The position numbers and the translations under genes are program-made. 64,000 nt of DNA from Sulfurovum sp. (lineage in GTDB: Bacteria; Campylobacterota; Campylobacteria; Campylobacterales; Sulfurovaceae), in the NCBI GenBank assembly GCA_002733215.1, contig NVUY01000010.1, forward strand, positions 1-64,000, in the 5' to 3' direction. The notes beneath the pieces are model-generated. The model saw only the letters and a program-made list of their open reading frames with translations, searched no databases and was not told the DNA's origin. The first letter of the stretch is position 1; each line of letters starts with the position of its first letter. Below, in pieces: positions 12,925-55,039 of the stretch.

Positions 12925-12926
12925 GC

Positions 12927-26022: not shown

Positions 26023-26071
26023 TGTCACATGCCTTTACCCCATGTATATATACTTTAGGAGGAAAATATTG

Positions 26072-35597: not shown

Positions 35598-36248
35598 TTA
35601 AAGCTCAATAAGCACACGAAACCCTACAAAATAATTACGTCCTCCTGAGCCAAGGTTTATCCTGGAGGCACAACGGCTGTTTTCTGCACTTCCGTTCCAT
35701 GATCCCCCACGCAGTACTCTACCCTTTTCACTTTGTATTTTATACGCGCTGCCATCTCTGGGTGTATGCTCATAGCTTTCTGCATAATGGTCACTGCACC
35801 ACTCCCATACGTTGCCATGCATATCATAAAGTCCCCAGGCATTTGGTTTTTTTGACCCCACATTATGGGTCACACCTTCAGCATTTTCTGCATACCAGGC
35901 ATACTCGGCAAATGCTTTTTCATTCTCAGAAAAACAGTATTTTCCAGAACTTCCTGCCCTGCAGGCATACTCCCATTCAGCTTCAGTGGGCAAACGGTAG
36001 GTCGCCCCTTCCCTCTCACTTTTCCAGGCACAATACGCTTTTGCATCTGTCCAGCGTACACGACGTACAGGTACATCAAAACCCAAATGCTCATGTCTGT
36101 CTTCAGGTACAACTGCACCTGTAGCCTGCGCAAAAAGCATGTAATCTTCCACTGTCACCGGGAATTTACACATCGCTACATCATAATCTATATGCACTTC
36201 ATGTACAGGCTGTTCTCTTTCTCTTGCATCTGCATCATCTGAGCCCAT
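35598..36248 (-). CDS. FGE-sulfatase (SUMF1-like) domain protein; may start at ATT 36287
   Basis: YRLPTEAEWEYACRAG, DMHGNVWEWCSD, GRVLRGGSWNGS..CASR..GFRV. Confidence 0.88.
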   Translation of the reverse strand: MGSDDADAREREQPVHEVHIDYDVAMCKFPVTVEDYMLFAQATGAVVPEDRHEHLGFDVPVRRVRWTDAKAYCAWKSEREGATYRLPTEAEWEYACRAGSSGKYCFSENEKAFAEYAWYAENAEGVTHNVGSKKPNAWGLYDMHGNVWEWCSDHYAESYEHTPRDGSAYKIQSEKGRVLRGGSWNGSAENSRCASRINLGSGGRNYFVGFRVLIEL

Positions 36249-36387
36249 AAGAAAGCTCCCGCGCGGCAGTTGTATAAAGTTTTTAATAGGTGACTCCTTT
36301 AAGTTGATTAGAAAATTATTATATCTTATTATTTTACATAATAATGAGAGATTTTTTCTTTTTGTACATTTACAAAAGTTTCTTTCA

Positions 36388-37377
36388 TCAAAGCAAAAAA
36401 CTAACCGTACGTTCTATCAGCCAAAATGCAGCGAGACTCCCTATAACATAAGCTATGCCTGTCTCACCTCTACGTAATACATTTTGTGTAAACACTTTCT
36501 TCACTACCCATGCTATCATTAAAACTGCAAATACAAAGATCAACTGTCCCAATTCTACTCCAACATTAAAGAAGATGAGTGATGGCACAATATCACTTTG
36601 AGGTAAACCTATTTCTTTGAGTGCTCCTGCAAATCCTAAACCATGAATGAGTCCAAAACCAAAAGCAATGAGCCAAGGGTATTTTGCACTTACATGTTTT
36701 CTCCCACGCATGGCATAAATCACTTCTGCAGCCACAAAGACAATGGAGAGTGCGATGATAGCTTCCACTGCTGTACTAGAGAGCTGTATCATTTCAAAAG
36801 AAGCCAACATCAGAGTAATGGTATGTGCCACAGTAAAAGCTGTAATAGTCAAAATCAGCATACGAATGTTTGAGACAAGCAATAAAAGTGCCAAAACAAA
36901 CAATAAATGGTCATAGCCCTCTAAAATGTGTTCTACCCCTAAGACAAAATAGGTAGATGACATGTTGTAAAAACCACTTTGATGACTTAGGGAAAAGCTT
37001 GGGTTCTCTGGTAATACACGTATGAACTCTGTTTCACCATCTAAGTAATGTATACGTACCAGCACATCACTTGAAGTGGATTCCAATCCTACAATAGTGA
37101 TTTTTTTACCTATGAGTGCGTCCACTTCATCTATGACATAACTTTCAAGTAAGGCTGTATTGGTTCTTCTTAGGTTTTTAAGCCCTACAACTTTGGCACT
37201 TTTAGGAAAGAGAGGTTCTAGTTTTAGAGGGTTTTTGGTTTCACCTTGTGTTGGTTTTTTCCACAACACCTTGTAAGAAGTGTCACTTTTTTGTGTGAGT
37301 TCTAAAAAAGCTGGGCGTATCTCATCTGCAAATGCAGCATAAAAAAGCAGCAACAGTAAAACGACAGAACGTATCAT
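36388..37377 (-). CDS. HupE/UreJ_2-like membrane protein
   Basis: GVEHILEGYDHLLFVLALLLL, AFTVAHTITL, FGFGLIHGLGFAGAL. Confidence 0.85.
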   Translation of the reverse strand: MIRSVVLLLLLFYAAFADEIRPAFLELTQKSDTSYKVLWKKPTQGETKNPLKLEPLFPKSAKVVGLKNLRRTNTALLESYVIDEVDALIGKKITIVGLESTSSDVLVRIHYLDGETEFIRVLPENPSFSLSHQSGFYNMSSTYFVLGVEHILEGYDHLLFVLALLLLVSNIRMLILTITAFTVAHTITLMLASFEMIQLSSTAVEAIIALSIVFVAAEVIYAMRGRKHVSAKYPWLIAFGFGLIHGLGFAGALKEIGLPQSDIVPSLIFFNVGVELGQLIFVFAVLMIAWVVKKVFTQNVLRRGETGIAYVIGSLAAFWLIERTVSFLL

Positions 37378-38195
37378 TTTACTTCTTTTTCTATGACAAG
37401 GTCATATTTGTTTTGAAGTGCATCATAAAATGCATCTATGGCTTTTTTCTGTGCATTTACCCTAAAATCAAGTTTTACTTTAGCCTGCACTTCTTCAAGC
37501 GTTGCCAGATGTCTAGCTTTTTTGTTTTCAATGTACACCAAGTGTACACCATAACCTGACTTGACGGGTCCTAACCAAGTGTTTAGAGGTAAAGTATTTA
37601 ATGCCTTTTCAAATTTTAAGCCAAAAAGTCTGGCTAAGCCTGCACTAGAAATGTCTTCATAACTTTGTTTAAGCATAATAGAGTCTCCACGTTCCGCATA
37701 GACTAAACTTAATTTTTCTGCTTTTAGCTTCTCAATATAAGCATCTACATCCTTATGCTGTTCAGGGTTTATGTAAATATGTTTAAAGGTGTAGATAGGT
37801 GCAATGGTGTACCTTTCTTTATGTTTATCCATAAACGCTTGAAGTCCTTCTTGTGTAGGTTCAAGTGAAGAGATGGAATCATTGAGCATAAACTCTATCT
37901 TTTGTTGTACTCGACGTTTGATGATGGTATCGTTTTCTACTAGTCCCATTTCTTGACCATGTTTAAAGACAAGGTCTTCGCGTATTTGGTTATCTATGAG
38001 AGCTTGAAGTTCTTCTTTAGTCGCCTCACGTTGTCTTGTCTTTTTAAATTGTGCTGAGAGTTGTTTTATTTTACCTTGTGAAATAATCACTTTCTCTTTT
38101 TCCACACTGTCATCATTGTTTGAGATATAAAAAAAGAGCAGTCCTCCCACTATAAGAAAATGCAGGAGTGGTTCTTGTAGTATTTTTTTGATCAA
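37374..38195 (-). CDS. Membrane-anchored PpiC-type peptidyl-prolyl isomerase
   Basis: N-terminal TM, SurA/PpiD-like helical region, LGPVKSGYGVHLVYIENKKA parvulin end. Confidence 0.85.
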   Translation of the reverse strand: MIKKILQEPLLHFLIVGGLLFFYISNNDDSVEKEKVIISQGKIKQLSAQFKKTRQREATKEELQALIDNQIREDLVFKHGQEMGLVENDTIIKRRVQQKIEFMLNDSISSLEPTQEGLQAFMDKHKERYTIAPIYTFKHIYINPEQHKDVDAYIEKLKAEKLSLVYAERGDSIMLKQSYEDISSAGLARLFGLKFEKALNTLPLNTWLGPVKSGYGVHLVYIENKKARHLATLEEVQAKVKLDFRVNAQKKAIDAFYDALQNKYDLVIEKEVK

Positions 38196-38203
38196 TTGTT
38201 ACC

Positions 38204-40114
38204 TTATTTGCTAGGTGTATACCAAATAGGTGAGGTATATGCACGTTCTTGTGTTTTAACTTTCACTTCTTTGGGTAAAGTAAGATTATATCGTACTGCA
38301 TCATATGCTGTCCATCTTGGTGTTGGTATCTCTAGTACACGGATATAATAAAAAGTACTTTGTTTACTGTCAAAGTCTTTATCTTCATAATAACCATAAA
38401 GTGTCGCAGCACCAATAGTGTTTGTCCATGTTGGTACAGAAAGGTCTACCGTATCACCCACAGCAGGAAGTTTTCCATTGACTGAGAGTTTTCTATCTCC
38501 ACCCCAAGCCACATTAATGACCTCTTCATGGGTTTCACCTTTTGTGTCTATCCAACCTTTTATGAGTTGTACTCTGTCAAGATTTGCCCCTTCAGGGTCT
38601 CTCATCGCAGCGATGATAAATGTCGGGTTCTGCCCTGCATTGTGAACACTAAGGTCACCACCCATTGGAACACCTTTGGCATACCCAACTGTTGCTAAGT
38701 CACGGTGTTTAAGATCTTCTTTTGTAAAGTCAAAACCTGCAAATACTCTCACACGAATACGTGGTCCAGTTGTGGCATACACTTCTTTTCGTTTCATCGC
38801 ATCAAATATACCTGCACGTGTATTGGCATCAGCCCAAACTGCGGTCACACCAGGAGAACTATACTGCCATGTATCAAAACCAAAATCAAGTTTTTTATTC
38901 TCTTTGGCTACTGTTATTTTTCCATTTTTGCCTACAATTCTATGTCTGTTAGGTTCCATCCATGTAAAAGCACCAAAATAGTTATCATCCATTTGCGTAG
39001 CAAGTCCTGTATGGTGATCAGATCCTGCAACAAAGCCAAACTTAAAAGGGTTGGTACCAAATTCCTTACCTAGTTTAAGACCATTTTTGAGAGATGAACG
39101 TGCATATTCATACTCTAACATTGCATCTGTTTTTTTCTCTGTTGCATCTAAATTACCATAATCAAACGTTTCATAGTCTGCAAATTCGTCTTTAGGAGAG
39201 AGTTTACTATGGGTCTCACCATCCCCTTTAGACTGCATAATTTCATAAAGTTTTTCCCATTTGGCTCTGGTTTTTATATAGTTTGAATCAAACTTTGCAC
39301 CATTTTTAAAGTCATCTACAGTATTAAACAACATCCCGTTAGAAAGGTCTCCATTATGAGGAATGGCAATGACTTGTCCCCCTGTAGTGTCTTCATAGGT
39401 TTGTAACCATTTCCATAAGTCTTCTGGGTTTGGACTTCCCATTGGGGGTGTCATAGTAAAAGGAAGAATGTTATAGGTACGCTCAGGACCATCTCTAAAA
39501 ATAACATTTCTATGTAAGTTGTTTCCTTTGACGAGTGATGTCCATTCATAAGCAATCATAGTCGTAAATTTATGGGGTTCATTGTTCTCTTCTGCTGCAT
39601 TGACAAGGTCTTGCCACGTGCGTTTATACCCTGCATTCCCAGGCTGGTAGTTGAGTGCAGTAGACAAAGTACCTTGAGAAAACCAACTTATGAGATCTTG
39701 TGATGCTTTTTTAGCTACATTTCCACCCTGGGCAAACCTATCATGTAGGTCTTTACCCTGTTTATCTGCCATGATTTCAGGTGTCCCTTTTAAGATGTCT
39801 GTAATGGCTCCCATACCATCTGTATGTTCAGTAATACACATAAAATCTAAAGCTCGATTTCGTTTAATAGGTTGATTTGTATTGGATAGTATTTCATGAC
39901 CTTTAGCAAAACGGTACAAATCACGAGGAAGAAGTTTAGTACCTCCTCCTCCAGCATCTGCTGAAAGTGCAGAGTGAATGTGTTGTTCCCCAAAAAGAAG
40001 TTTTGTCGGGTATGCTCTGTCTGCATACGGTGAATACGTTTTTTTGCTTTCTTGGGCATAACTCATACTTGTGACTAAAAGTGCACAAAGTAATGGTGTT
40101 TGTAATAATTTCAT
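38204..40114 (-). CDS. DUF3604 (PHP-like) secreted protein, copy 2; start moved from 40162
   Basis: Signal peptide MKLLQTPLLCALLVTSMSYAQ; LFGEQHIHSALSADAGG; CITEHTDG; FVAGSDHHTG; stop/start overlap with upstream gene. Confidence 0.85.
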   Translation of the reverse strand: MKLLQTPLLCALLVTSMSYAQESKKTYSPYADRAYPTKLLFGEQHIHSALSADAGGGGTKLLPRDLYRFAKGHEILSNTNQPIKRNRALDFMCITEHTDGMGAITDILKGTPEIMADKQGKDLHDRFAQGGNVAKKASQDLISWFSQGTLSTALNYQPGNAGYKRTWQDLVNAAEENNEPHKFTTMIAYEWTSLVKGNNLHRNVIFRDGPERTYNILPFTMTPPMGSPNPEDLWKWLQTYEDTTGGQVIAIPHNGDLSNGMLFNTVDDFKNGAKFDSNYIKTRAKWEKLYEIMQSKGDGETHSKLSPKDEFADYETFDYGNLDATEKKTDAMLEYEYARSSLKNGLKLGKEFGTNPFKFGFVAGSDHHTGLATQMDDNYFGAFTWMEPNRHRIVGKNGKITVAKENKKLDFGFDTWQYSSPGVTAVWADANTRAGIFDAMKRKEVYATTGPRIRVRVFAGFDFTKEDLKHRDLATVGYAKGVPMGGDLSVHNAGQNPTFIIAAMRDPEGANLDRVQLIKGWIDTKGETHEEVINVAWGGDRKLSVNGKLPAVGDTVDLSVPTWTNTIGAATLYGYYEDKDFDSKQSTFYYIRVLEIPTPRWTAYDAVRYNLTLPKEVKVKTQERAYTSPIWYTPSK

Positions 40115-42003
40115 TAAATTTCCTTCTCTTTTGTAGGTGTAAACCAGATTGGTGAAGACCAAGCACGTTCTTGAATGGTTGCAGGAACTCTATCAAGCAA
40201 AGGCAAGTTATTTCTTACAGCATCATAAGTACTCCATCTTGGTGTGGGTATTTGTATGACGCGTGCATAGTAGAGTGTAGGCAGTGTTGCATCAAACTCT
40301 GTGTCTGTAAACGAACCCATGAGCATAGGACTTCCTATTTCGTTGGTATATTTAGCAGTTTTGAGGTCTACTGTGTTTCCTACTTTTGGAAGATTTCCAT
40401 TTTTATCCATTTTACGTTTGTCTGACCAGGCTACATTGATGATCTTTTCTTGTTGTTTACCATCTTTGTCTACCCAACCTTTGATGATTTGTATACGGTC
40501 AAGGTTGCCTTTGTCTACATCTTTTTGTGCCCAAACGGTAAATGTTGGTGCCTTTTTAAGTCCTACAATGGTTTGTCCCATCGCTACGCCATTTTTATAG
40601 CCATCTTCTATCATATTTTTAGCGTCATTTGGGTTTTTAGATAAAGTTTCTCCTGCAAAGAAACGTACTAGCATTCTAGGACCGGAAGTCACAAATGTTT
40701 CTCTATTGTACATAGCATCCCAAATGTCTGCACGCGTATTTTTCTCTGCCCATACACCTGTAATAGAACCTATACTCTGATCTATAGCATCAAGCCATTC
40801 AGGTACTTGACCTTTACGTCTAAGTGCAACTGTACTGTCTGCTGCACCATGTCCACCTATAAAATTGTCTTCTGCAACATCTGCAGTTAAACCATTGTGG
40901 CTGTCTGTTCCACCGCTAAAGCCATATTTGTACGGATTTACACCTAAAGAAGTGCTGTATTTAAGTCCTTCTATCACCCCATGTCTAACAAAGTTCTCTT
41001 TTTTTATCTCACGTTTTGAAAATTTTGCTAGAGAATCTGCATTTTCAAAGTCTGCAAACTCATCGGCTGTCCAAAACTTTCTATGCACTTCAGAGTTTCC
41101 TTTGATTTGCATCATCTCAATGAGTCTTTCAAAATGGTTACGCGTTTGGGCATACTCTAACGTAATGGGTTTACCTGTAGAATCATTTTTGTTAAACATC
41201 ATGCCTTTTGAAGCATTGGAGTTGTGAGGAATCGCAAAAAGTCTGCTACCTTTTTTTTCTTGTTCACTCATCCATCCCCAAAGCCCCTCTTCACGATTAA
41301 ACTCTGCATACCCTACTGGACGTTCTGGTAAAACCATGTCACGGAAAAATACATTTCTGTGTAGGTTTCCACCTTTGGGTGCTCCCGACCACTCAAAAGC
41401 AGCAAGTGTTGTAAAAACTCCCGGTTCATAGTGTTCTCTTACAGCATCAACATTTACTTTCCATGCAGAGTTGATGCTCTCTACTCCTGTGAAAAAGTCT
41501 GTATGTTTAGGCGGTGCATCTCCACGGTTTACTGAAATAACATACTTAATAAACCACTTGATTTGCTCTTCATACTTAGTGAGTGAACGTAACTCTTTCA
41601 GCACATCCTGGTCATACCCTTTTGCTTGGGCATGCATAGCAGTGTACATTTCACCAATATACTCAGAGTGGTCAGTTACGGCACAAAAGTCCAAAGGACG
41701 TTCAAGTTTATGTTTTTGACCATTAATGAGCATCTCTTCCCCTTTAGCAAAACGTAAAGAGTCTGAAGGTGTCATCCGGTTACCTCCTATATATGCATCT
41801 AACGAGTAAGAGGTATGCATGTGGGTTTCACCAAAGTAAGCATTTTTAAGAGGGTTAGAGGGTGCATCTTTTTCAAGCTGTTTTATATGCTCTGCTTGTG
41901 CAGCATAAGAGCTGTCTTTGTTTTTTTCATTCTCTGCTAAAATCGGTGTAGCCAACACTAAAGTAGCAATAATAGAGTATTTTATGCGTAAAGATATGTT
42001 CAT
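40114..42003 (-). CDS. DUF3604 (PHP-like) secreted protein, copy 1
   Basis: Signal peptide; YFGETHMHTSYSLDAYIGG; AVTDHSEYIGE; FSGGTDSHNG. Confidence 0.86.
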   Translation of the reverse strand: MNISLRIKYSIIATLVLATPILAENEKNKDSSYAAQAEHIKQLEKDAPSNPLKNAYFGETHMHTSYSLDAYIGGNRMTPSDSLRFAKGEEMLINGQKHKLERPLDFCAVTDHSEYIGEMYTAMHAQAKGYDQDVLKELRSLTKYEEQIKWFIKYVISVNRGDAPPKHTDFFTGVESINSAWKVNVDAVREHYEPGVFTTLAAFEWSGAPKGGNLHRNVFFRDMVLPERPVGYAEFNREEGLWGWMSEQEKKGSRLFAIPHNSNASKGMMFNKNDSTGKPITLEYAQTRNHFERLIEMMQIKGNSEVHRKFWTADEFADFENADSLAKFSKREIKKENFVRHGVIEGLKYSTSLGVNPYKYGFSGGTDSHNGLTADVAEDNFIGGHGAADSTVALRRKGQVPEWLDAIDQSIGSITGVWAEKNTRADIWDAMYNRETFVTSGPRMLVRFFAGETLSKNPNDAKNMIEDGYKNGVAMGQTIVGLKKAPTFTVWAQKDVDKGNLDRIQIIKGWVDKDGKQQEKIINVAWSDKRKMDKNGNLPKVGNTVDLKTAKYTNEIGSPMLMGSFTDTEFDATLPTLYYARVIQIPTPRWSTYDAVRNNLPLLDRVPATIQERAWSSPIWFTPTKEKEI

Positions 42004-42104
42004 AATTTTCCTTTTTTGTAAGAGCTTAGTTTAAAAAGTTGAGACCTTTTAAACTAAACTCTTATGACTCTCCTTGGCAAAGGAAAGCACATAAGAATGT
42101 TATC

Positions 42105-43646
42105 TTAATTGTTTGTTGGATGTGCAGAAATCATTTGGATAGCATCTCCTACCGTAAAACTTCCTGGCTTTTGTCTCGGAGGGAATTCTTTAAATGTTGC
42201 TAAGAATTTTCCTACCATCTCTTGTACAGGAAGTGCAATAAAAGCACGTCTATACCACCAATCATTGTACCCCATACCTTCCATACCACGCTCAGAAGGA
42301 TCAGATTTCAAGTCAAAAAAGATAGGTGCTCTAAGTTTTTCAAATGGTGTTCTCCAAACATCCATACCTGTTGCATTTTGAACCATAAAGTGAATTTTTG
42401 TACGTCCAAATCTAAGTGCCAAAAGGTCTCCATCATCAGAGAAGTAGAAAAATTCTTTTCTGGCTTCTTTCCCTGTACCAGTAAGTAGACCTGTTTGGTC
42501 GTATCCATCTAAATGTACTTTAAATGTTTTGTTCCCATAGGTATGCCCTTTTAGAAGTTCTTGTTTTACATTTTTGTTTCCAGCAATTCCCACAAGTGTT
42601 GGGAACCAGTCTTCCCCTGCAAATACATGGTTAATCACTGTACCCGGCTTGATATTATTTGGCCATCTAACAAGTGCAGGTACTCTCCATCCACCTTCCC
42701 AGTTTGTATTTTTTTCGCCTCTGAATGGTGTAGAACCAGCATCTGGCCAGAGACACACCATTGGGCCATTATCGGACAGATACATCACTATGGTATTTTC
42801 TGTTAACTTCTCATCATCTAAGAAATCAAGTAGTTTACCTATGAGTGCATCATGTTCCATCATGCCATCTGCATATGCACCCAGTACTGGGTAGATACCC
42901 TTTGGATTGTTTCTGTTTTCTTTTTTTACATGGGTAAAGTTATGCATACGCGTAGGGTTAAACCAAACAAACCAAGGTTTCTTCGCTGCTTTTTGTCTGC
43001 TTATAAAGTCTTTGGTTTTAGCCAACACTTCTTCATCGATGGTTTCCATTCTTTTTTTATTGAGGGGTCCCGTGTCCTCTATTTTCCCATCTGCTGTTGA
43101 AGAGATGACACCTCTTGGTCCATACTTTTTTAAAAATTTAGGATTTGTCGGATAGTCTTCATTTTCTGGCTCTTCTTCTGAGTTTAAATGGTATAGGTTT
43201 CCATAAAACTCATCAAAACCATGGTTGGTAGGTAACATGTCATCTCTGTCACCTAAATGGTTTTTACCAAACTGACCTGTAGCATATCCAAGAGGTTTGA
43301 GCATCTCAGCAATGGTTGGGTCTTCTTTTTTTATCCCTTGTGGTGCACCAGGAAAACCTACTTTTGAAAGTCCCGTCCTAAAAGGAACCTGACCCAAAAT
43401 AAACGCTGATCTTCCTGCTGTACAAGACTGCTGTCCATAGTAGTCAGTCATAAGTGCACCCTCTTTTGCAATACGGTCAATGTTTGGTGTCTGATAGCCT
43501 ACAATCCCTTGTCCGTAAGCACTTACGTTATTGATACCGATATCATCTGCCATAATTACCAAAATGTTTGGTTTATCTACTGCTTGTAACCACAGAGATG
43601 TCATAGCGACCATACCCGTAAAGAGTATTTTTTTAGATAGTGTCAT
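42105..43646 (-). CDS. Secreted Cys-type sulfatase (arylsulfatase family)
   Basis: NILVIMADDIGINNVSAYG; GQQSCTAGRSAF sulfatase signature; YLSDNG. Confidence 0.92.
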   Translation of the reverse strand: MTLSKKILFTGMVAMTSLWLQAVDKPNILVIMADDIGINNVSAYGQGIVGYQTPNIDRIAKEGALMTDYYGQQSCTAGRSAFILGQVPFRTGLSKVGFPGAPQGIKKEDPTIAEMLKPLGYATGQFGKNHLGDRDDMLPTNHGFDEFYGNLYHLNSEEEPENEDYPTNPKFLKKYGPRGVISSTADGKIEDTGPLNKKRMETIDEEVLAKTKDFISRQKAAKKPWFVWFNPTRMHNFTHVKKENRNNPKGIYPVLGAYADGMMEHDALIGKLLDFLDDEKLTENTIVMYLSDNGPMVCLWPDAGSTPFRGEKNTNWEGGWRVPALVRWPNNIKPGTVINHVFAGEDWFPTLVGIAGNKNVKQELLKGHTYGNKTFKVHLDGYDQTGLLTGTGKEARKEFFYFSDDGDLLALRFGRTKIHFMVQNATGMDVWRTPFEKLRAPIFFDLKSDPSERGMEGMGYNDWWYRRAFIALPVQEMVGKFLATFKEFPPRQKPGSFTVGDAIQMISAHPTNN

Positions 43647-43694
43647 CTTAGTTCCTTGTTTAAAGTTAAAGTAAATATATTTTTCAATATACGA

Positions 43695-44516
43695 TTAAAA
43701 TGTTGGAAATAAAAACTTGGCAGTAAATGTCAAAGAATTTTTAGGTGTTGGAGCAAAAATTCCGTTACCTATGTTTACTTTATCTGCAAAATTATGTGCG
43801 TATTGTAAAGAGAACATCACAGGTAGTTTTCCAAACCTATGAAGTTTCCCTACTTGTAAAGCAATGGGTAAAGAAACCCATTGTGTAGACTCCCAGTCAT
43901 ACATGTACTGTATGTCTCCCGTACCGATGTTCCATCCTCCACCCAAAGAGTAGTTTACTATAGGTTGAAAAGAACTTATTTTAGTATGAGGACGTACATC
44001 ATCCCCTGCTATACGAAAGAGATTTTGGTTAAAGAGTCCTAGGTTTAGACCTTTGGTGATGGTATTGTTTACAAAACCAAAGGCAGGGCCTAGACTCCAT
44101 TGTTTGTTTCCCCCTTCTATGGGAATACCTGCAACTACACCTACACCAAAACGTCCCCAGGAAGCAGGAAACACTGTCATGTCAAACAGAGTCATATCTG
44201 CTAGACCGGTATCACCCGAAGGGCTGTCTGTTGCGTATGGCTGTGTGATTCTAGCTATGTGGTTGTACTCACCCCATTTGTAAGGATATGCTGCACGGAA
44301 TGAAACACTATTTCCACTTTCACCCTCTAAACTGTTATAATAATCAGACGTGTAATTGTCTATCAGCTGTACAGCCATAAGTGGGGCTGTGGGGTCATTT
44401 GCTTTTTGTGACAAGTCAGTTTCTGAATAGAGTGAAGATACACTTAATGCAAGAGCATACCCTAAAGATAACATAGTTTTTTTTATACTCATTTTTTTCA
44501 TATTAAACTCTTTCAT
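43695..44516 (-). CDS. Outer-membrane beta-barrel-like protein, possible substrate channel
   Basis: Signal peptide, aromatic/glycine-rich alternating strands, C-terminal AKFLFPTF ending in F; start may be internal Met. Confidence 0.65.
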   Translation of the reverse strand: MKEFNMKKMSIKKTMLSLGYALALSVSSLYSETDLSQKANDPTAPLMAVQLIDNYTSDYYNSLEGESGNSVSFRAAYPYKWGEYNHIARITQPYATDSPSGDTGLADMTLFDMTVFPASWGRFGVGVVAGIPIEGGNKQWSLGPAFGFVNNTITKGLNLGLFNQNLFRIAGDDVRPHTKISSFQPIVNYSLGGGWNIGTGDIQYMYDWESTQWVSLPIALQVGKLHRFGKLPVMFSLQYAHNFADKVNIGNGIFAPTPKNSLTFTAKFLFPTF

Positions 44517-44605
44517 TTTTATTCTTAATAACTTTTTTTAATAATACCCAAAAACTATATCTAATGGGTATAGAAAAACTGCAAGATGTAAAGGTTTTGA
44601 TGATT

Positions 44606-45553
44606 TTAAGACTGTCTTTGCAACGTTAAAGAAGGAAGTTCTCCAAACATGTTTTTATAGGCAGCAGTAAAAGTGCTCATATTGTAAAAATTGTATCGTA
44701 ATGCAACGCTGGAGATGTGTTCAGTACGTGGATCTGCTAAAATAAGTTCCTGTTTAATCGCATGCATACGAAGAGCTAAAAGGTATTTTTTAGGTGTGAC
44801 TCCATATTGGGCTTTGAAAGAGTGATGCAGTGTACGTTCACTGATGCTAAGTTCTGTTGTTATGTGAGGAATAGAAATGGATTCTTCAATAGACTGGTGT
44901 AGCAAGTCTCGCACGTTTTTAATGTGAAAAGTTTGTTTTCGCTTAGCATTTTCTTCCAAGTAAATATAAGAAAAAACATGATGAAGTATCTCAGATTCAA
45001 TTTTAGGGTAGTATGTATCTATGGGCAAAGTGGTATGATCTTTCATCAAATAAGACATCCAGTTTTCAATACCCTTTACAAAGTGAGAGAAGGACTCAGG
45101 CTCAATGTAGAATTCTTTGTTTTTTGTATGGCTATTAAAATCTTCATTAAAATAACTGTAGTACGCTTTCGTGAAAAACCCTTCTTTAACCGAAAGTACA
45201 AAAGTTTCACTTTCACCCGTACAAAGAAAGTCAATTTCATCACCAGATCTTAAAATCTTGATTTGATGATGCACTGCTAGTTTGTTTTGAAATGAAATAT
45301 CAGCCTTTGTCACTACAAAAGCAATAAGTACAGTACCTTTTGGGAAATCTCCACGTAATAACACACCATGAGAATATGGTGTACGCATAAGCTGTATATG
45401 TGGCGTATGGGTCACAATCATTGAACCATAAAATGAACCTTTTTGTATCTGTATACGCTCAAGGCTCCAAGATCGTGCATAAAACTCCATCTCTTCTAGG
45501 TTAATATCTCTAAAGTCTATCTTCAGTCCAATGGGAAAAAGTATAGATGACAT
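44606..45553 (-). CDS. AraC-family transcriptional regulator
   Basis: Tandem HTH: SIPHITTELSISERTLHHSFKAQYGVTPKKYLLALRM..HISSVALRYNFYNMSTFTAAYKNMFGELPS. Confidence 0.9.
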   Translation of the reverse strand: MSSILFPIGLKIDFRDINLEEMEFYARSWSLERIQIQKGSFYGSMIVTHTPHIQLMRTPYSHGVLLRGDFPKGTVLIAFVVTKADISFQNKLAVHHQIKILRSGDEIDFLCTGESETFVLSVKEGFFTKAYYSYFNEDFNSHTKNKEFYIEPESFSHFVKGIENWMSYLMKDHTTLPIDTYYPKIESEILHHVFSYIYLEENAKRKQTFHIKNVRDLLHQSIEESISIPHITTELSISERTLHHSFKAQYGVTPKKYLLALRMHAIKQELILADPRTEHISSVALRYNFYNMSTFTAAYKNMFGELPSLTLQRQS

Positions 45554-45746
45554 AAAGGCTCTCCCATATCTTATTCATTCATTATAGGGAAAGTAGCTTA
45601 TAGCAATAGCTTTGCTGATTGCATGGTCTATTTTGTACCCATGTAATTAACAGTATAAAGACGATGAGTTTTAGATTTTGAATAGTGGAATAGAAGAAAT
45701 GCACTCCTAAACTAAGTTTAGAAGTGTAAAAATGTATCGTTTTGTA

Positions 45747-45869
45747 TTAAAGTACTGAGCTAATAGCTAACTTTGCAGTTTCTTTTTTTGCGCTTGCATC
45801 AGGTATTGAAGCTTTAGAAGCAGTGACTGCTCCAAGAGCACCTGCTTTAATTTTTTGTACTTATTTCAT
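45747..45869 (-). pseudogene. Possible small decayed ORF: ATG-AAA-TAA then 37 open codons
   Basis: MK*VQKIKAGALGAVTASKASIPDASAKKETAKLAISSVL* read on the minus strand just after the mscS-like gene. Confidence 0.3.
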
Positions 45870-45871
45870 TA

Positions 45872-47353
45872 CTAATCGTCATCAACACTCATATCTTTTG
45901 TATCTACAGTATCTTTTGATTTTTTAGTGTAAGTTTCTTTACTATGCTCGTCTGCCGCTTTCTCTGTCTGTGTATTTTGCCCAATAACATGTATGTCACT
46001 CTGAGGATAAGGGATAGAGATACCTTCTTCATCAAAGCGTTCTTTGACTGTACGGGTTACTTCCCAGAAGACAGTCCAATAATCAGCTGTTTTAACCCAT
46101 GGACGGCATATGAAGTTCACCGATGAATCTGCCAATTCACTTACCTTGATGGTAGGTGCAGGGTCTTTGAGTACCAGTGGATGTTCTGAGAGGATCTGCT
46201 CCATCACCTTCTCTGCCTGTTCAATGTTATCATCATAACCGATACCAAAGACCAGATCTACACGTCGTGTATCACTATGTGTTACATTGGTAATGATATC
46301 ACCCCAGATTGAGTTGTTTGGAATAATCATCATTCTGTTATCTGCTGTGACAATGCTTGTCGATACTAATGTCATTGACTCAACAGTACCTATGATACCT
46401 GCAACATCCACAACATCACCTATGTCATAAGGACGGTAGAACATGATCATCAGTCCGCTGGCAAAGTTACTCAGTGTTCCCTGTAGTGCAAATGCAACCA
46501 CAAAACCTGCGGCACCTACCATTGCCATGATCGGTGCTACATTGATATCCATTGCCGCGAGTGCGACCAAAAGTCCGATGAACATCACCACTTTATGGAT
46601 ACTGTTGGAAATAAATTCATTGAGAAGCTGTGAACTGTTTTTTGTGTTTTGCAATGCCTTTTTTGCTCCTCTACTCAATAAGCTAGAGATGAACATAGCA
46701 AGAAAAAGGATAGCAAGAAATTTAAGAATATTTATCAACCAGTAGATACCGCCATCCTCAGACATGATCCATCCAGAGACAGTTGTCCACGCAGAATGGG
46801 CATCCGTCACTTCTAAAGAGATACCGCTAACGGTATCTATATAGCGGCGGTATGGCAGTACCTTTTCAAGCTCTTTACCTGTTTCATCTGTACCGATCTT
46901 TTCGTTGATATTTTCCAGCACGGTATCAAGACGATCCACCATTATCTTTCTTTCGGAACGTAGCTTTATCTGTTCTTCAAGGATAGCAGATTTCTCTTCA
47001 TTTGCTACAGTGAGCTTCTGCTGAACTCCCTCTCTCTCCTCGGCTGCTGTCTCGTTATTGTCCAATGCTTTCATAGCATCGATTTCAACATTTTTTTCTC
47101 TCACTAAAATTTTAGTATCATAGACTTTTTTAGCAGATACTTTTAGTAGTTCTAACCATCCGTCAGCTTCGACAAATAGTTCATCACTGGACATATGTCT
47201 GACCATCAGATTAAGTATTTCAGGTGAAACATCCGCATCTGCTGTCGTAACAGCTGTAGGTTTTACAGGTGTTTCCTCAGCATAAACAGCTGTGGTTGAT
47301 GTCAATGCCAAAGTTAACATTAACCCTGAAAGTATTTTTTTAAAATTCGTCAT
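45872..47353 (-). CDS. MscS-family mechanosensitive channel
   Basis: GAAGFVVAFALQGTLSNFASGLMIMFYRPYDIGDVVDVAGIIGTVESM. Confidence 0.92.
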   Translation of the reverse strand: MTNFKKILSGLMLTLALTSTTAVYAEETPVKPTAVTTADADVSPEILNLMVRHMSSDELFVEADGWLELLKVSAKKVYDTKILVREKNVEIDAMKALDNNETAAEEREGVQQKLTVANEEKSAILEEQIKLRSERKIMVDRLDTVLENINEKIGTDETGKELEKVLPYRRYIDTVSGISLEVTDAHSAWTTVSGWIMSEDGGIYWLINILKFLAILFLAMFISSLLSRGAKKALQNTKNSSQLLNEFISNSIHKVVMFIGLLVALAAMDINVAPIMAMVGAAGFVVAFALQGTLSNFASGLMIMFYRPYDIGDVVDVAGIIGTVESMTLVSTSIVTADNRMMIIPNNSIWGDIITNVTHSDTRRVDLVFGIGYDDNIEQAEKVMEQILSEHPLVLKDPAPTIKVSELADSSVNFICRPWVKTADYWTVFWEVTRTVKERFDEEGISIPYPQSDIHVIGQNTQTEKAADEHSKETYTKKSKDTVDTKDMSVDDD

Positions 47354-47386
47354 TTTTCTCTCTTTTTATTTTATATTTTCTACAGA

Positions 47387-47959
47387 TCAATAAGGAGAAG
47401 AAACTACTTTATAAACCAAAGCATCACCTTCATAGAAAGGCTGATAATATGAATTATCACATCTTCTATAGGAGATGCCGTTAGCAATAACTGTAGTACA
47501 AGTCGTTGGCATAGTTGAGGCTGCGATCACTGAACCTATCACTAAACCTGTTGTGAAAGCCATCAGTGGAGCACCACGATAATAACCATAATGCCCACGT
47601 CTGTGCCCACCATAATAACGGCTATTATGATTTACGTTCACATTCACATTTTTGTTCACATTTCTATTGACATTTTTATTTCTATTGACATTTCTGTTTT
47701 TATTGACATTTCTGTTTTTATTGGTATTCCTGTTACGATTCGTACTGCGACTTCGGTTTGCTCCACCACCTCTTCGTGCTCCACCGCCACCTCGTCTAGC
47801 CTCTGCCTGCGTAAAGAGAGACACATTCATTTCTATAGGCATAGTAGCAAAACCGTTTCCTAATGGAGTGATTTTTTCAACACTCACTGATGGAGAAAAA
47901 AGACCTATCATGGCAGCCACTACAGTGAACTTCGCTAAATAACTGTTTTTATTTTTCAT
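47387..47959 (-). CDS. Low-complexity Asn/Arg/Lys/Val-repeat secreted protein
   Basis: GGGARRGGGANRSRSTNRNRNTNKNRNVNKNRNVNRNKNVNRNVNKNVNVNVNHN core; C-terminal Cys/Tyr-rich region; signal-like N-terminus. Confidence 0.72.
   Translation of the reverse strand: MKNKNSYLAKFTVVAAMIGLFSPSVSVEKITPLGNGFATMPIEMNVSLFTQAEARRGGGGARRGGGANRSRSTNRNRNTNKNRNVNKNRNVNRNKNVNRNVNKNVNVNVNHNSRYYGGHRRGHYGYYRGAPLMAFTTGLVIGSVIAASTMPTTCTTVIANGISYRRCDNSYYQPFYEGDALVYKVVSSPY
47684..47719. repeat. Two exact 18-bp tandem repeats coding NKNRNV-type hexapeptides
   Basis: ATTGACATTTCTGTTTTT x2, with degenerate copies on both sides. Confidence 0.75.
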
Positions 47960-47973
47960 ATCTCAATCCTTTC

Positions 47974-48684
47974 TTACTTTGATTTATTAACTGATATTTT
48001 TGATGCACCTTTTGGTGCTACAAAAACAAAATCGCTCTCTGAAATGTTTGCATTAGTATCCCAAGTTATATTGGTATTGACTCTTGATGGAGAGTCATTA
48101 CTTGTATCTATGATGCTATAACTTTTTACCAGTGGTTTATCTCCCGTAGCTATCCAGACATGTATCTCTCTTGTGCCATTTTTAAACGCTATGTAGTCAC
48201 ACTCTACGCCAGCTACATCTTTAGTACCAAAGTATTTGCTTGAACTGAACTTTACTCTTTTATCCATATCACTATAGATCAATTGTGCAAGAGGTGCTCT
48301 GATGCCAAACTTTTCAAAAAGGAAATCAAGTGCTGCATCTAGTTTTTTGGGTGTTTGTATTTGACCGTAATAGTTATGATTATGGTCTATCATAGTAAAG
48401 CTACCGTCATTGAGGTAATTTGTTCTATTTTTCACTGTTCCTGTAGTATCTACACGCAGCTTGCCCGGTCTGTATACTTTTACAAGAGCTGTATGTTTAT
48501 ATGTTTTACCCTCTACTTCACCATCTGTTATGGTCGCAGTAAACGCGTATTTGTCCATACTACCGATAGTTTGATAAGCATTATTGAGTATGTCTCTTGC
48601 AGACTGTTCTGCTGCAAAGAGATTTGTACTGCTTAGCAAGAGTGCTACTCCTGCTGTGCAGAGGAGTTTTTTATGTAAGTTCAT
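47974..48684 (-). CDS. DUF2092 / LolA-like periplasmic protein
   Basis: Signal peptide; VYRPGKLRVDTTG..NRTNYLNDGSFTMIDHNHNYYGQI. Confidence 0.75.
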   Translation of the reverse strand: MNLHKKLLCTAGVALLLSSTNLFAAEQSARDILNNAYQTIGSMDKYAFTATITDGEVEGKTYKHTALVKVYRPGKLRVDTTGTVKNRTNYLNDGSFTMIDHNHNYYGQIQTPKKLDAALDFLFEKFGIRAPLAQLIYSDMDKRVKFSSSKYFGTKDVAGVECDYIAFKNGTREIHVWIATGDKPLVKSYSIIDTSNDSPSRVNTNITWDTNANISESDFVFVAPKGASKISVNKSK

Positions 48685-48836
48685 TTTTCATCCCTTTTTT
48701 ATGTATTCTATCTAACTTGATAATATACCATAAAAATGAAATTTACTAGTATAGAAAAACTGCAAATTACGTAGATAAAGAAGATATTTTTGGTTCCTTA
48801 TAATAATCTGAAATGAAACATAGTACTGATTCTCCT

Positions 48837-50699
48837 CTATGGGGATTGATCCCTATAGGCACGTTTAGGGATCGGTTGTCCCAGTAAAACCGTTGTATGC
48901 AACAGTAGACGCTCAATGGTACCCAGTTTGGTACGCTGTGTCAGTACATTTTGAGCCATTGCAGGTTCATCAGTAATGATGCCGTCTACACCCAAAGATA
49001 TCATACTGGTCATAGAGACAGGATCATTGGCTGTCCAGATAAATACTTTTTTGCCTACTTTATGCGCTCTTCTTACAAAGTTTGGTTCCATCATATCCAT
49101 ATTGATCGCAAGGAAATCTACATCCATCTTGGAAATATCTCCCATAGCTATCGATAGTAAAATACCGGTCTCCAAGTCAGGTCTCAATGACCGTACTTTT
49201 TTGATGCCGCCAGGCCACAATGACATCAGTGCAACATTCTGTGACATACCGACCTTTTCAACCACGTCTATCACACGTTGTTCAAGCTGTTCGTCATGAC
49301 CATAATATTTGAGTTCAATGAGCACTTTTGCTTTCCCTTTCGCTTCAAGCAGTACCTCTTCGAGTGTCTGTATGCGTTGTGCAGAAAACTTAGGGTCAAG
49401 CCAACTGCCTATATCGATCTGACGTAACTCATCCAGTGTACCATCCCATACTTTTGTTGGCACATTTGAAATCTTCATGAAGTCACTGTCGTGTATCACA
49501 ACCACTTCACCATCTTTAGTTTCCTGAACATCTATCTCTACCCAGTGGGCATTGTCATTGATCGCCTGTCGTATGGCTGCTATCGTGTTTTCAGGTGCTT
49601 TCCCTGCTGCACCGCGATGGGCAATGATCTCCACATTATCTACAGTCTGGATATCTTTTAGGAGCCAGGTACCGGCTAAAACTGCTGCTGTCACCGCAGT
49701 GATCAAAAGAAGTGTCACTTTTGTCGTTGTTAATTTTAACCCTTCTCCCTCTTCTTTTACTCTCATATCACTTGTGTTTATATGGCATCCGTAACGCTCA
49801 GAGAGCACTACGATCAAAGTCGCAAAACTGCTTGATGTAAATGTCGTCACAAAGATATTTCCAAGAGATAACAAAGCAACCATAGCACCCATCACCAAGA
49901 TAAGTACTTTGAATGAATCGTAAAAGAGAGGCACTACTTGGCTTGCTAAAAAGTGAATCGTTCCCAACACAAATACAGATAACAAAAATGCAGCAAAAGC
50001 CCAGAGGGAAAATGACTTTAGTATCTGATACTTATGCCCTTTAGCCAAAGCTTCACTTTTGGCAAAAGAGTCAGCTGCTGAGACGCCTGAAAAAAGGATC
50101 AGAGGAAGGGCAAGAGACCAGGAGAGCAGTTTACGTACCAGTACAAAGAGCATCAGCATCATGATCAACCCGATGATCAAAACATTCACGATGAATACAG
50201 GCGGTTTTTCAGCCAAATAATAGTTGATATCATGATCTGTGATTAAAAACCAGGCAATAGCCGCAGAGACAGCAAGAAAGGGTACCACGATGATCAATAT
50301 ACGAATAAGAAGCCGTAGAGTAAAGAGATAGATACTTTTTGCATGGTTAAACGTAAAATGAAGTGCAGCAAGCACAGCCATATTTTGTCCATGCAGCCTT
50401 GTCGCACTTACTGCCATCATAGAAGCTTTTTCAAAAATAAGAATAGTGATCAACAAACCGGCAAAGACGATCAACGCCGTTATCCCCGCAGGTGACAGCA
50501 TAAACATAGCAATGTCCATGTCGGAGAGTACCGCCTCTCCCGATAGACTTAGCAGGAATTTACCGACAATACCGACTAAAGGAGCAAACAAGGTCAAACC
50601 AAGTGCCATATATATAAGGTGAATAGTAAAGAGCTTTACCATGCTCTGCCGCAGAACACCTAATACCTCTTTCCAAATACCCTCTTTTTGTTCTGTCAT
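48837..50699 (-). CDS. Glycerophosphodiester phosphodiesterase with N-terminal multi-TM domain
   Basis: IIAHRGAAGKAPENTIAAIRQAI, HWVEIDVQETKDGEVVVIHD. Confidence 0.9.
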   Translation of the reverse strand: MTEQKEGIWKEVLGVLRQSMVKLFTIHLIYMALGLTLFAPLVGIVGKFLLSLSGEAVLSDMDIAMFMLSPAGITALIVFAGLLITILIFEKASMMAVSATRLHGQNMAVLAALHFTFNHAKSIYLFTLRLLIRILIIVVPFLAVSAAIAWFLITDHDINYYLAEKPPVFIVNVLIIGLIMMLMLFVLVRKLLSWSLALPLILFSGVSAADSFAKSEALAKGHKYQILKSFSLWAFAAFLLSVFVLGTIHFLASQVVPLFYDSFKVLILVMGAMVALLSLGNIFVTTFTSSSFATLIVVLSERYGCHINTSDMRVKEEGEGLKLTTTKVTLLLITAVTAAVLAGTWLLKDIQTVDNVEIIAHRGAAGKAPENTIAAIRQAINDNAHWVEIDVQETKDGEVVVIHDSDFMKISNVPTKVWDGTLDELRQIDIGSWLDPKFSAQRIQTLEEVLLEAKGKAKVLIELKYYGHDEQLEQRVIDVVEKVGMSQNVALMSLWPGGIKKVRSLRPDLETGILLSIAMGDISKMDVDFLAINMDMMEPNFVRRAHKVGKKVFIWTANDPVSMTSMISLGVDGIITDEPAMAQNVLTQRTKLGTIERLLLHTTVLLGQPIPKRAYRDQSP

Positions 50700-50736
50700 T
50701 TTTGCCTACCTTTTCTTTCTTCGTGTATACTTATGA

Positions 50737-53700
50737 TTACGAATTAAAAATTCCCCTCAACTCATCCCTGTCCATATCTCCAAGCCAGTTCTCGCCGATA
50801 CTCACACTAAGATCAGATAGCTCTTTCTTGGCTTTTATCATCTTATCCATCTTCTCCTCAAAACTGTCTTTGGTGATAAAACGATACACAGAAACATTTC
50901 TCTTCTGCCCGATCCTGAAGGCTCTATCCGTTGCCTGGTTTTCAACAGCCGGATTAAACCACAGGTCGTAGTGGATGACATGATTTGCCTCTGTCAGATT
51001 TAGCCCTACTCCACCAGCTTTTAGAGAAAGGATGAAGATCTTATGTTTGGGGTCATTTTGGAAACTTTCGACTATCTCATCTCGTTTTTTCTTTGTTTGT
51101 GAACCTTTTAGAAAGAGTGGTGTAGTGAGCAGTACATCTTCTATCATTTTGACAAGAATATCACCCATTTGAGTATATTGAGTAAAGATAAGCACTTTCT
51201 CGTTTCGTTGCAAAATGGTCTCCAGTAGTGTTAAGAGTAGTTGTGATTTTCCTGATAGTTTTGGGTCGATAGGGCTTGTTTTATCAAAGTTTCTTGGGTG
51301 GTTACATATCTGTTTCAGGGAGATAATGAGCTTAAGCACCAATGCTCCTGTGTTTTCCTCATTTTCCATCATCCTGAAGCTTTCATCAACGACACTTTGG
51401 TAAAGTCCTGCTTGCTCTTTTGTCATAACAGAGTATTCATCAATAATGATCTTTTCAGGCAGATCAGGAGCGATATTTTTATCGGTTTTGAGCCGTCTCA
51501 GCATAAAAGGGGCTGTGATCTTTTTGAGCTTTTCTATTTTGACTCTGTCTTTTTTTATCTCTATATCTTTTGCATAGTTGTTTTGAAAATCTTTGAGCGT
51601 TTTAAGATATTTAGGCAGTGCAAAATCAAAAATGCTCCAAAGCTCTGAGAGATTGTTCTCAACAGGTGTACCGCTTAGAGCGATTTTATATTTAGCCTTG
51701 ATAGACTTTATTGCCTTACTGATCTCGGTATTTGGATTTTTTATTTTTTGCGCTTCATCAATAATAAGACAATCTATCTTCTCTTTTTTTAGTTTTGCCA
51801 GATCTCTTCGTACTATATCATAGGTAGTGATGAGTATATCTGACTCCTGAAACTCTCTTTTAAGACCATAGTAAGAGAAATAGCCAAGTGATGGAGCAAA
51901 CTTCTCCAGCTCATTTTCCCAGTTGCTGATAAGTGAAGTCGGCACCACAATGACCACACGCTTTTTGATAAAACTATTCTCTTTAAGATACAAGATGGTA
52001 CTAATGGCCTGGATCGTTTTTCCAAGCCCCATATCATCAGCCAAAATGGTACCAAACCCGTTAAGAAGATTGTTGATATTCCACGAAAAACCTCGCTCTT
52101 GATAGGCTCTGAGATTAGCTTGTAACGAAGAAGGAACAGCTATATCCTTGGGTCTAAACAGGTCATCGATATAGGCTTCCAACTCTTTGCTTAGAAAAGC
52201 TTCTCCATTAAGCGTTGCCTGTAAAATATCGAACTGATTGAGGCTTTTTTTTCGTTTGATCTCTGCAAAGATATTTTTAGCTTCTTCCGCCGAAATCACT
52301 ACAAAGTTTTCTTTAAATTCTATAAGTTCCTTTCCACTCTCTACAAGCTTTTCAAACTCCTCTACACTTAAGACCTCATCACCTATGGCGATCTGCCAGT
52401 CATATTCAAGCATGGATTGCAGATCAAAGAATGATTGCAGGTTTTTACCTTTTTTGCTGCTTACTTTAAGCGACAGTTTTGGACGTAAAAGATTTTTAAG
52501 CTCTTTAGGCAGGACAATATCTATACCAAGATTTGTGATAATAGACGAAGTCTTCAAGAGGAACTCTTCAAGTTTCAACTTAGAGAGTTTGATGCTGTCT
52601 TTCTGTAAAAGTTGGCTTATCTCAGGAAGATAGGCATGAAGAAAAGAGATAAATTTCAGTATCTCCATCTTCTTCAGGCTTGTTAAGCTTTGATTGAGAA
52701 GGTACTCCTTATTTACCTCTTGTACTTTTATGGAAAGATAATACTCTTTATCTTTGTCTATATATATTTTATATCGGTACTTACTTTTAACGATATCAAA
52801 GACAGCAAAATAGTTATAGATGGATGAGGCTAGATTTTCCTCCTCAAATCCTTTGACTTTAAATACTTTTGCATGAAAAAATGTCCATGTGATAGCAGGA
52901 GGGTTATTGTTCTGCTTTCTGTGTATAAATCCCATACCCGTTGCAAAATCACTTATGACTGCAGAAAGTATCGCATCAGTAGAACAGTTCTGATCTAGAT
53001 AGTTCGTTTTGTACTTTACTATCTTGGGAGCCATTTTTGAGAGAGAACTTAACTGTTCTTGCACCTGGGGAATGGAGTGAAGGGGTCTGTAAACAATAGT
53101 GAAACTCTTTTTGTCTTCAATCACAGCCGGGATAAATGCTTTTGCTTCTATCATTAAATAGGCTACCCTGAAGAGATAAAAGAGAAAACGGTAACTCTCG
53201 CTGCCACTGTCATCTTCAAAGGAGATAAAGAGTCTGAACAGTTCACTAATGTCAAGACTCATAGTGTCTTTTTTGAAAACAGCATCCATGTCCTGAAAAA
53301 GTTCACCGGACTCTGCCAGAAGAGGATTTTTGATATCAAACCTGCTATCATAAATATTATAATCAAGCAAAAACTCAAAATCTGCATTTTGAAACAGTCG
53401 CTCTATAGCTTCAATATCTCTGCTTTGGATCGCTGTGATATTGTATGCCAAAGCCCTTGGTACTTTTTTGTAAAACTCCTCCATCACCTCTTTGTAGTCA
53501 ATGGATGCAAAAGGAGGATTGGAAGAGAGCATAGAGAGTATAAAGTTGGAGCTGTCTTGCAGTTTAATGATCTCCAAAGGCTCACTACTCACCTCCTGTT
53601 CCTCATAAGGAGTTAGGGATAGTGGATACTCTATATTTATCTCACTCTCTATCCCATAATACTCAATCAGGTCAAACCCGCGAAGAGAAAAAAGGATAAA

Positions 53701-54150: not shown

Positions 54151-54179
54151 TTTACACCTTTTACAATATCTGCTTAGTC

Positions 54180-54460
54180 CTACACTTCCTTACACTCTGT
54201 AGCCCTAGCCCTATACTTCACATCAAGCAGCTCAAAATGCTTCTTCATACGGAAAATGGTACTGTTCTCTAAAGTGTTCTTGCATACTTGAAAGGGCATT
54301 GAGCACACCCTCTTTAATGGCGATAGACGGAGTAATGATGATATATTTATTCCATCCGTAATGCTCATAAAGTTCCAATATGGTTTTTATGTACACATAC
54401 ATTTTTCCCGTGCCGGTTTCCATCTCTACAGAGAAATCACGACTTTGCAGCATCATCGAC
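54180..54460 (-). pseudogene. Remnant of type III restriction enzyme Res subunit
   Basis: FSVEMETGTGKMYVYIKTILELYEHYGWNKYIIITPSIAIKEGVLNAL: type III Res Walker A region, but GTGKM instead of GTGKT, and truncated. Confidence 0.75.
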
Positions 54461-54611
54461 TCTTCAATACCATTGGTTCTCTGTACTTAATGAAGGTTTT
54501 CAAGTATAGTTTCCTCTTACTGTTATCAGTAAGGTATGAGAGTCTTAACAACTCTACAAGTGGCTCCGCTCTGCCGTATGAGCGACCATTATTAAAAATC
54601 ATTTGATACAT

Positions 54612-55039
54612 TCACAATTTTTTTATATTTTGTAGGGTTTTCAATATATTACTCTGGTTTTGATACTCATCTTCCGCATATTCTACAGCGAGAGAGAAAT
54701 TCATATTTTCCTCCAACAACATATATTTCAAATCAACCTCATACTCTGATAATTTATTTTTTACTACATCCCAAACGATATTTTCATCTATACCAAAATA
54801 TCCGTGTAAAATTTGATTTCTAAAATCAACTATCCTTCTGTACTTTGCATCTATTAGCTCATCTTTAAGTAAATATTTTGTTGCTTCACCTATAATTTCC
54901 AATTCACGAATAGTTGCATCCCAATAGACTTCATCGTATAAAAGTTACTTCCATTTTCAAACCTTTCTGTATATCGTTTTACCTTGTCAATGGCAATAAA
55001 GATATCTACAACATAAAATGTATTATCTCTATGTAACAT
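54612..55039 (-). pseudogene. HepT-family (DUF86) toxin, frameshifted
   Basis: MLHRDNTFYVVDIFIAIDKVKRYTERFENGSNF in one frame, YDEVYWDATIRELEIIGEATKYLL..RNQILHGYFGID in another; frame change near 54934-54944; RX4HXY motif present. Confidence 0.78.

Follow-up and report, generated by a model that had tools for sequence, protein, structure and literature searches.

Positions 35598-45553 of the 64,000-nucleotide stretch of a Sulfurovum sp. genome analyzed here (assembly GCA_002733215.1, contig NVUY01000010.1; hereafter the window) carry eight minus-strand open reading frames (ORFs) belonging to the families that an earlier note on this DNA had named. Pfam searches of the window proteins recovered an AraC-type HTH_18 domain, an S1 sulfatase, two DUF3604 proteins, a PPIC rotamase, a HupE_UreJ_2 permease and an FGE-sulfatase domain. 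The conserved core of the cluster is DUF3604 together with PpiC and HupE_UreJ_2; a sulfatase, an AraC regulator and an outer-membrane protein may or may not accompany it, and the FGE-like gene falls outside the cluster. Our preferred reading, held tentatively at a little under an even chance, is that of an AraC-controlled, horizontally acquired module for periplasmic ester hydrolysis, in which PpiC would fold, and HupE would handle metal for, Sec-exported PHP-type hydrolases. The parts are known families, and the DUF3604-PpiC-HupE triad seems to be undescribed in the open literature, most subscription journals lying outside that scope.

Linkage of DUF3604 with PpiC and HupE

A scan of contigs returned 80 DUF3604 loci, 38 of them with full flanks, from Pseudomonadota, Verrucomicrobiota, Bacteroidota, Acidobacteriota, Nitrospirota, Desulfobacterota and other taxa as judged by record titles. 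PpiC and HupE both lie within 5 kb of DUF3604 on the same strand at 43 of the 80 loci and at 25 of the 38 with full flanks, where a sulfatase comes equally close at four loci and an FGE at two. HupE_UreJ_2 was present in all 25 DUF3604-bearing genomes checked, usually in one to three copies per 3-8 Mb genome, from which we estimate that linkage within 5 kb would arise by chance at a rate of about 1% or less. The association of DUF3604 with PpiC and HupE exceeds chance, and that with the FGE-like gene does not. The earlier note had named a lack of conserved co-occurrence across genomes as a refutation of its proposed pathway; such co-occurrence was found for the triad, which is linked in several phyla. 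For DUF3604 with a sulfatase it was found in a minority of loci, and for the FGE-like gene it was not borne out.

Within the genus, HupE occurs in five of five DUF3604 genomes versus 12 of 73 others (p 2.9e-4), and in a gamma sample in 14 of 19 versus 40 of 166 (p 2.9e-5), both values being rough, with phylogeny ignored. DUF3604 itself is found in 5 of the 78 genus genomes; in the four genomes other than the window's it is always accompanied by PpiC-HupE, with a sulfatase either absent or of a different type. The G444 cluster reads AraC, outer-membrane protein, DUF3604, PpiC and HupE, without a sulfatase; in G445 DUF3604 and PpiC are separated by a sulfatase, and in L176 and L177 one sits beside the triad. 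PLSDB annotation gives the order arylsulfatase, HAD, multihaem cytochrome, DUF481, DUF3604, peptidylprolyl isomerase and HupE/UreJ in Rhizobium, the same order in Ensifer, and a DUF3604 pair without PpiC-HupE on a marine Rhodobacteraceae plasmid. The triad is present, for example, on a plasmid of R. leguminosarum WSM1689 (L194).

The window genome also contains a diverged second copy (L005), comprising AraC, DUF3604, toxin-antitoxin-like genes, sulfatase, DUF3604, PpiC, HupE and an outer-membrane protein, without any FGE. An AraC relative and what by inspection is an OprB-like porin lie near this copy, and its toxin-antitoxin-type genes, between DUF3604 and the sulfatase, span 12329-14131 of that locus. 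Repetition of the same content in a diverged copy, along with the sulfatase positions in G445, L176 and L177, speaks against an adventitious cluster, that is, two or three independent units (DUF3604-PpiC-HupE; the sulfatase; AraC with the outer-membrane gene) that became neighbors on an island with no functional link. The scarcity of sulfatases near DUF3604, the completeness of the G444 cluster without one and the solitary position of this genome's other sulfatases argue in its favor, and we consider it unlikely.

DUF3604 proteins and their predicted partners

Both window DUF3604 proteins are full-length matches to PF12228 (720.7 and 671.8 bits versus a cut-off of 20.4, from position 2 or 3 to 591 of 591). 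The earlier note had proposed PHP-like metal-dependent hydrolases from the motifs GETHMHTSYS and GSDHHTG; both motifs are present, and their ligand residues do not vary across 92 homologues. H45, H47, H97, E190, H201, H253, D366 and H368 reproduce the PHP-type ligand pattern HxH, H, E, H, H, DxH, and D53, D90, E291 and D309 are likewise invariant. Each of these motifs has its counterpart in the PHP superfamily, and the invariant ligand set supports the prediction of PHP-like metal hydrolases. An AlphaFold2 model of DUF3604-b from a deep alignment had a mean pLDDT of 94; structure comparison used the 92-sequence model, a four-sequence model (pLDDT 54) having been discarded. Foldseek against the PDB gave no match below E 0.001, and the matches of highest probability were the PHP proteins 3o0f (0.84) and 3e0f (0.82), with 9etk at 0.63. 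We attribute the beta-sandwich matches of the model to the C-terminal domain. Neither sequence nor 92-sequence profile searches of the PDB found a solved DUF3604 relative.

The closest known enzymes are metal-dependent PHP phosphoesterases (Bifidobacterium adolescentis BAD_1165, 3o0f/3e0f; Vibrio cholerae RNase AM, 9etk), which resemble DUF3604 in ligand pattern, the PHP superfamily and DUF3604 sharing a metallohydrolase-like N-terminal domain. In contrast to these named enzymes, DUF3604 proteins are predicted to be exported, span about 640 residues and carry a C-terminal beta-rich domain. Their N-termini are Sec-like and a twin-arginine-like motif appears in just 1 of 92, so export looks Sec-type, with metal presumably gained outside the cytoplasm. 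Two subfamilies, A and B, emerge from the DUF3604 tree, with a support of 1.0 for clade A. The window cluster combines one member of each (A+B), an arrangement shared with G444, Tropicimonas-type L018, Aliiruegeria L021 and Opitutaceae L093; the remaining tandems pair two members of the same subfamily (B+B or A+A).

The window HupE matches PF13795 with 169.3 bits and carries the HX5DH motif, whose H150, D156 and H157 are invariant in 30 sequences; the permease part keeps further invariant H and E residues. PpiC scores 39.5 bits against PF13145 (cut-off 27) and has a solved relative in 3rfw (5.6e-05). No solved relative of the HupE N-terminal domain was found with the window or L064 sequence or with the A3 profile.

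In two HupE/UreJ-2 types (Ang-1 and Ang-2), the exported N-terminal domain binds Cu or Ni via an N-terminal His and has been proposed to feed the permease (PMC12537917, Nat Commun 2025); DUF3604 and prolyl isomerases go unmentioned in the main text of that paper. Like these anglerase-HupE/UreJ-2 proteins, the window HupE combines a PF13795 permease with an exported N-terminal domain. By inspection, His follows the predicted cleavage site (HEVRPAYLE) in 39 of 46 DUF3604-linked HupEs, but this anglerase-type residue is absent from the window protein, whose predicted mature N-terminus is Asp (DEIRPAFLEL after AFA). Asp is also found in second copy L005, L070 and three others, and the other Campylobacterota proteins start with it. 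The HupE of Rhizobium leguminosarum is a nickel permease (Brito et al. 2010, cited in PMC12537917) with which the window HupE shares the HupE/UreJ family and the HX5DH motif; in contrast, the window protein has no hydrogenase or urease context and has an extra periplasmic domain.

As relatives of HupE are described as importers, HupE might instead recover metal: DUF3604 and the sulfatase would release a transition metal bound to an organic ligand in the periplasm, HupE would import the metal, and the catabolic look of the cluster would be secondary. That HupE/UreJ members are nickel permeases, that anglerase-HupE proteins are proposed importers (PMC12537917; PMC2667541), that the His start prevails among DUF3604-linked HupEs and that, by inspection, other HupEs adjoin genes resembling metal efflux are all in line with such scavenging. 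Nevertheless, the window and other Campylobacterota HupEs start with Asp, the clusters hold no siderophore or metallophore genes, and a dedicated prolyl isomerase is left unexplained, so that we give scavenging a low probability.

In gamma genomes, HupE adjoins PpiC at 9 of 11 loci where DUF3604 is present in the genome versus 0 of 23 where it is not. At six of these 23 loci HupE lies near soxB, which likewise encodes an exported metallohydrolase (TIGR04486, all six above cut-off), 0.04-2.3 kb away in L154, L161, L163, L171, L172 and L189, and the mature N-terminus of soxB-linked HupE is again Asp (DVVKPALVE); other HupEs of the DUF3604-less gamma genomes are the ones near metal efflux-like genes. 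SoxB normally leaves the cytoplasm folded via the Tat route, which would account for a soxB-linked HupE without PpiC. PpiC-HupE might be a device devoted to maturing PHP-type metallohydrolases after export, with metal delivered on the periplasmic side by HupE and the client folded by PpiC, and HupE alone might serve SoxB in a similar way, although we think this rather unlikely. As judged by titles, no HupE-SoxB link was found in the open literature searched, which also yielded nothing on HupE with a sulfatase and a prolyl isomerase, on HupE UreJ with cobalt or on DUF1254 with a sulfatase. In one gamma genome, DUF1254/DUF1214 proteins are interleaved with DUF3604, HupE and PpiC (L179, 2187-3734 and 7956-9416).

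The sulfatase, the genomic island and neighboring genes

The closest solved relative of the window sulfatase is arylsulfatase 7aj0 (3.9e-61), which we take to be the fucoidan sulfatase PsFucS1. PsFucS1 has been described (PMC8484680), and like it and other S1 arylsulfatases the window enzyme is Cys-type and carries an export signal; unlike it, the window sulfatase has no glycan-degrading neighbors, and no FGE/anSME was found for it in the genome, where the best anSME candidate scored 22.5 bits against a cut-off of 349. A small utilization locus for fucoidan or another sulfated polysaccharide, built around the S1 sulfatase, would fit this relationship and the OprB-like porin and AraC relative near the second copy. 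We judge it improbable: no glycoside hydrolase, polysaccharide lyase or SusC/D-like gene was recognized among the ORFs of either cluster, the sulfatase is missing or of another type in related clusters, and the triad also occurs in rhizobial and soil genomes. The sulfatase suggests a sulfate ester as substrate for this cluster. The earlier note had inferred a sulfated or phosphorylated substrate; a sulfated one would apply here at most and not as a general DUF3604 trait, since the sulfatase is optional across loci.

The window genome encodes eight Cys-type S1 sulfatases, the others standing alone. Sulfatase genes on contigs C21 and C41 are equal in score and spacing, suggesting assembly redundancy. 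Elsewhere (L100, 9658-14153), an NMT1-like periplasmic binding protein has a Cys-type sulfatase (CTPTR) on either side, next to an AraC akin to that of the window.

The FGE-like gene, which the earlier note had listed in the same candidate pathway as the sulfatase, turned out to be a core chromosomal gene. In cluster-less relatives polA, FGE and ccsBA are contiguous with a polA-FGE gap of 0-2 bp (L212, L213, L215 and L216), which excludes the gene from the cluster; FGE and ccsBA are also adjacent in a fifth relative, L214. It occurs in 28 of the 78 genus genomes, most of them without DUF3604, and is missing from every related cluster in the genus. Junction alignment placed the end of its homology at about 36288; the window polA lies at 55903-58632. 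The homology starts just inside the 5' end, upstream of the frame's own first ATG, the ATG of the relatives having been lost through insertion. The catalytic-Cys motif GGSxLC....C is absent: the window protein and relative P0003 (G424) read RGGSWNGSAENSRCASR, and at the catalytic-Cys region the FGE-like protein reads RGGSWNGSAENSRC, with neither cysteine present. The FGEs of L025, L030, L033 and L058 keep the catalytic Cys (GGS[FH]LC...YC). For these reasons we rejected the FGE-like gene as sulfatase maturase.

The sequence inserted between polA and the FGE-like gene was probably acquired horizontally (Table 1). Its GC content equals that of the flanks, and its ends carry no terminal direct repeat of at least 10 bp. 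In an even sample of 397 genomes of the class, DUF3604 was found only in the window's own, so the cluster is a sporadic acquisition in the Campylobacterota; an ancestral Campylobacterota pathway was rejected on this count and on the 5 of 78 in the genus. The island further carries membrane GDPD, SNF2 helicase and HepT/nucleotidyltransferase-type genes, the last next to polA; HepT-like and NTP_transf_2 genes with a DNA methylase fragment at this end (54612-55702, minus strand) are possible mobile-element remains.

Table 1. Features of the island and of the DUF3604 gene cluster in the window
Feature	Position	Strand	Evidence or remark
Genomic island, about 19.6 kb, polA to FGE-like gene	36285..55902		holds whole DUF3604 cluster
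FGE-fold protein, core gene of polA-ccsBA neighborhood, outside cluster	35598..36288	-	5' end cut by insertion
HupE_UreJ_2 permease with exported N-terminal domain	36388..37377	-	PF13795 6.4e-50
PpiC-type peptidyl-prolyl isomerase, N-terminal membrane anchor	37374..38195	-	PF13145 1.2e-09
DUF3604-b (subfamily B), predicted Sec-exported PHP-like hydrolase	38204..40114	-	PF12228 1.5e-216
DUF3604-a (subfamily A), predicted Sec-exported PHP-like hydrolase	40114..42003	-	PF12228 1.1e-201
Exported S1 sulfatase, Cys type	42105..43646	-	PF00884 5e-50; CTAGR, Cys75
273-aa exported protein, probable outer-membrane barrel	43695..44516	-
AraC-family regulator	44606..45553	-	PF12833 1.5e-17, 64 bits; C-terminal HTH_18
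MscS-type channel, same insertion, membership uncertain	45872..47353	-	PF00924
Arg/Asn-repeat exported protein, probable extra member	47387..47959	-	homologues in G444, L016
DUF2092 periplasmic protein, possible extra member	47974..48684	-	PF09865 1.3e-42

From araC to hupE, neighboring genes overlap by up to 4 bp or lie up to about 100 bp apart, with stop-start overlaps between DUF3604-a and DUF3604-b and between ppiC and hupE. The start of DUF3604-b was corrected from the mechanical TTG at 40162 to the ATG at 40114, which overlaps the upstream stop. A promoter and terminator scan gave 19 promoter-like sites versus 31.6 in shuffles and eight terminators versus 7.6. Signal-like N-termini support the periplasmic process proposed in the earlier note. 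A close homologue of AraC heads the G444 cluster and a 36% identical one heads second copy L005. The 273-residue outer-membrane candidate has no Pfam or NCBIfam match; its homologues belong to the G444 (E 3e-123) and G445 (E 8e-125) clusters and also adjoin DUF3604 in L017, L018 and others. An Arg/Asn-repeat homologue (3.4e-59) lies between the araC and outer-membrane genes of G444, and this recurrence suggests that the functional unit may reach upstream of araC. DUF2092 homologues are close to DUF3604 in L032, L067 and L086, and those of the MscS-type channel in a few loci.

Elsewhere in the window, four overlapping plus-strand genes (26042-32328; 397, 184, 1230 and 288 residues) resemble a Wadjet/MksBEF-type set, in which just the last gene has a weak JetD match in PADLOC. 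The sole Rfam match, to a group II intron (49.6 bits), lies at the left edge (7-95, plus strand).

A proposed mechanism and its implications

In the ester-hydrolysis reading that we prefer, the outer-membrane barrel would admit an organic ester, from which the exported Cys-type sulfatase would strip sulfate, and the two DUF3604 proteins, each with a PHP-like multinuclear metal site, would cleave further ester bonds. PpiC, anchored in the inner membrane, would fold the Sec-exported DUF3604 enzymes; HupE, as a permease for divalent metals that also has a periplasmic domain, would handle the metal ion that they need; and AraC would sense substrate or product. The gene content, the borders of the island, the conserved linkage of the triad, the invariant PHP-type ligands, the HX5DH motif and the signal-like N-termini are observed, whereas a single transcript, the substrate class, the identity of the metal and the action of PpiC and HupE on DUF3604 are all elements that we infer. 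The second copy of the cluster, the HupE genes near soxB and the binding of transition metal by exported HupE/UreJ-2 domains also favor this reading.

Several observations weigh against this reading. The described relatives of HupE, being importers, would not obviously serve a periplasmic enzyme, and PpiC-HupE is missing from the vicinity of DUF3604 at 13 of the 38 loci with full flanks. DUF3604-less genus genomes carry PpiC-HupE near soxYZ-type genes, which indicates that the pair has clients other than DUF3604. Structural similarity to PHP proteins is weak, with E values of about 0.01-0.03 and a TM to target of about 0.4, and the cluster contains no substrate-specific gene. Finally, sulfatase maturation is unexplained, as the 85%-complete genome yielded no catalytic-Cys FGE or anSME.

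DUF3604 is a widespread family without an assigned function, named by one paper among 5.39 million open papers, and its pairing with folding and metal-transport genes in several phyla offers a testable hypothesis. The analysis also puts forward possible clients of the HupE/UreJ-2 anglerase-type permeases, among them SoxB of thiosulfate oxidation. Should PpiC-HupE prove to be a maturation device, DUF3604 proteins would be exported PHP enzymes of a new class, metallated by machinery of their own, and the replacement of His by Asp in Campylobacterota would signal a switch to another metal. For the organism itself, a rare Campylobacterota lineage gained genes for probable organic-ester degradation by insertion at a conserved chromosomal site.

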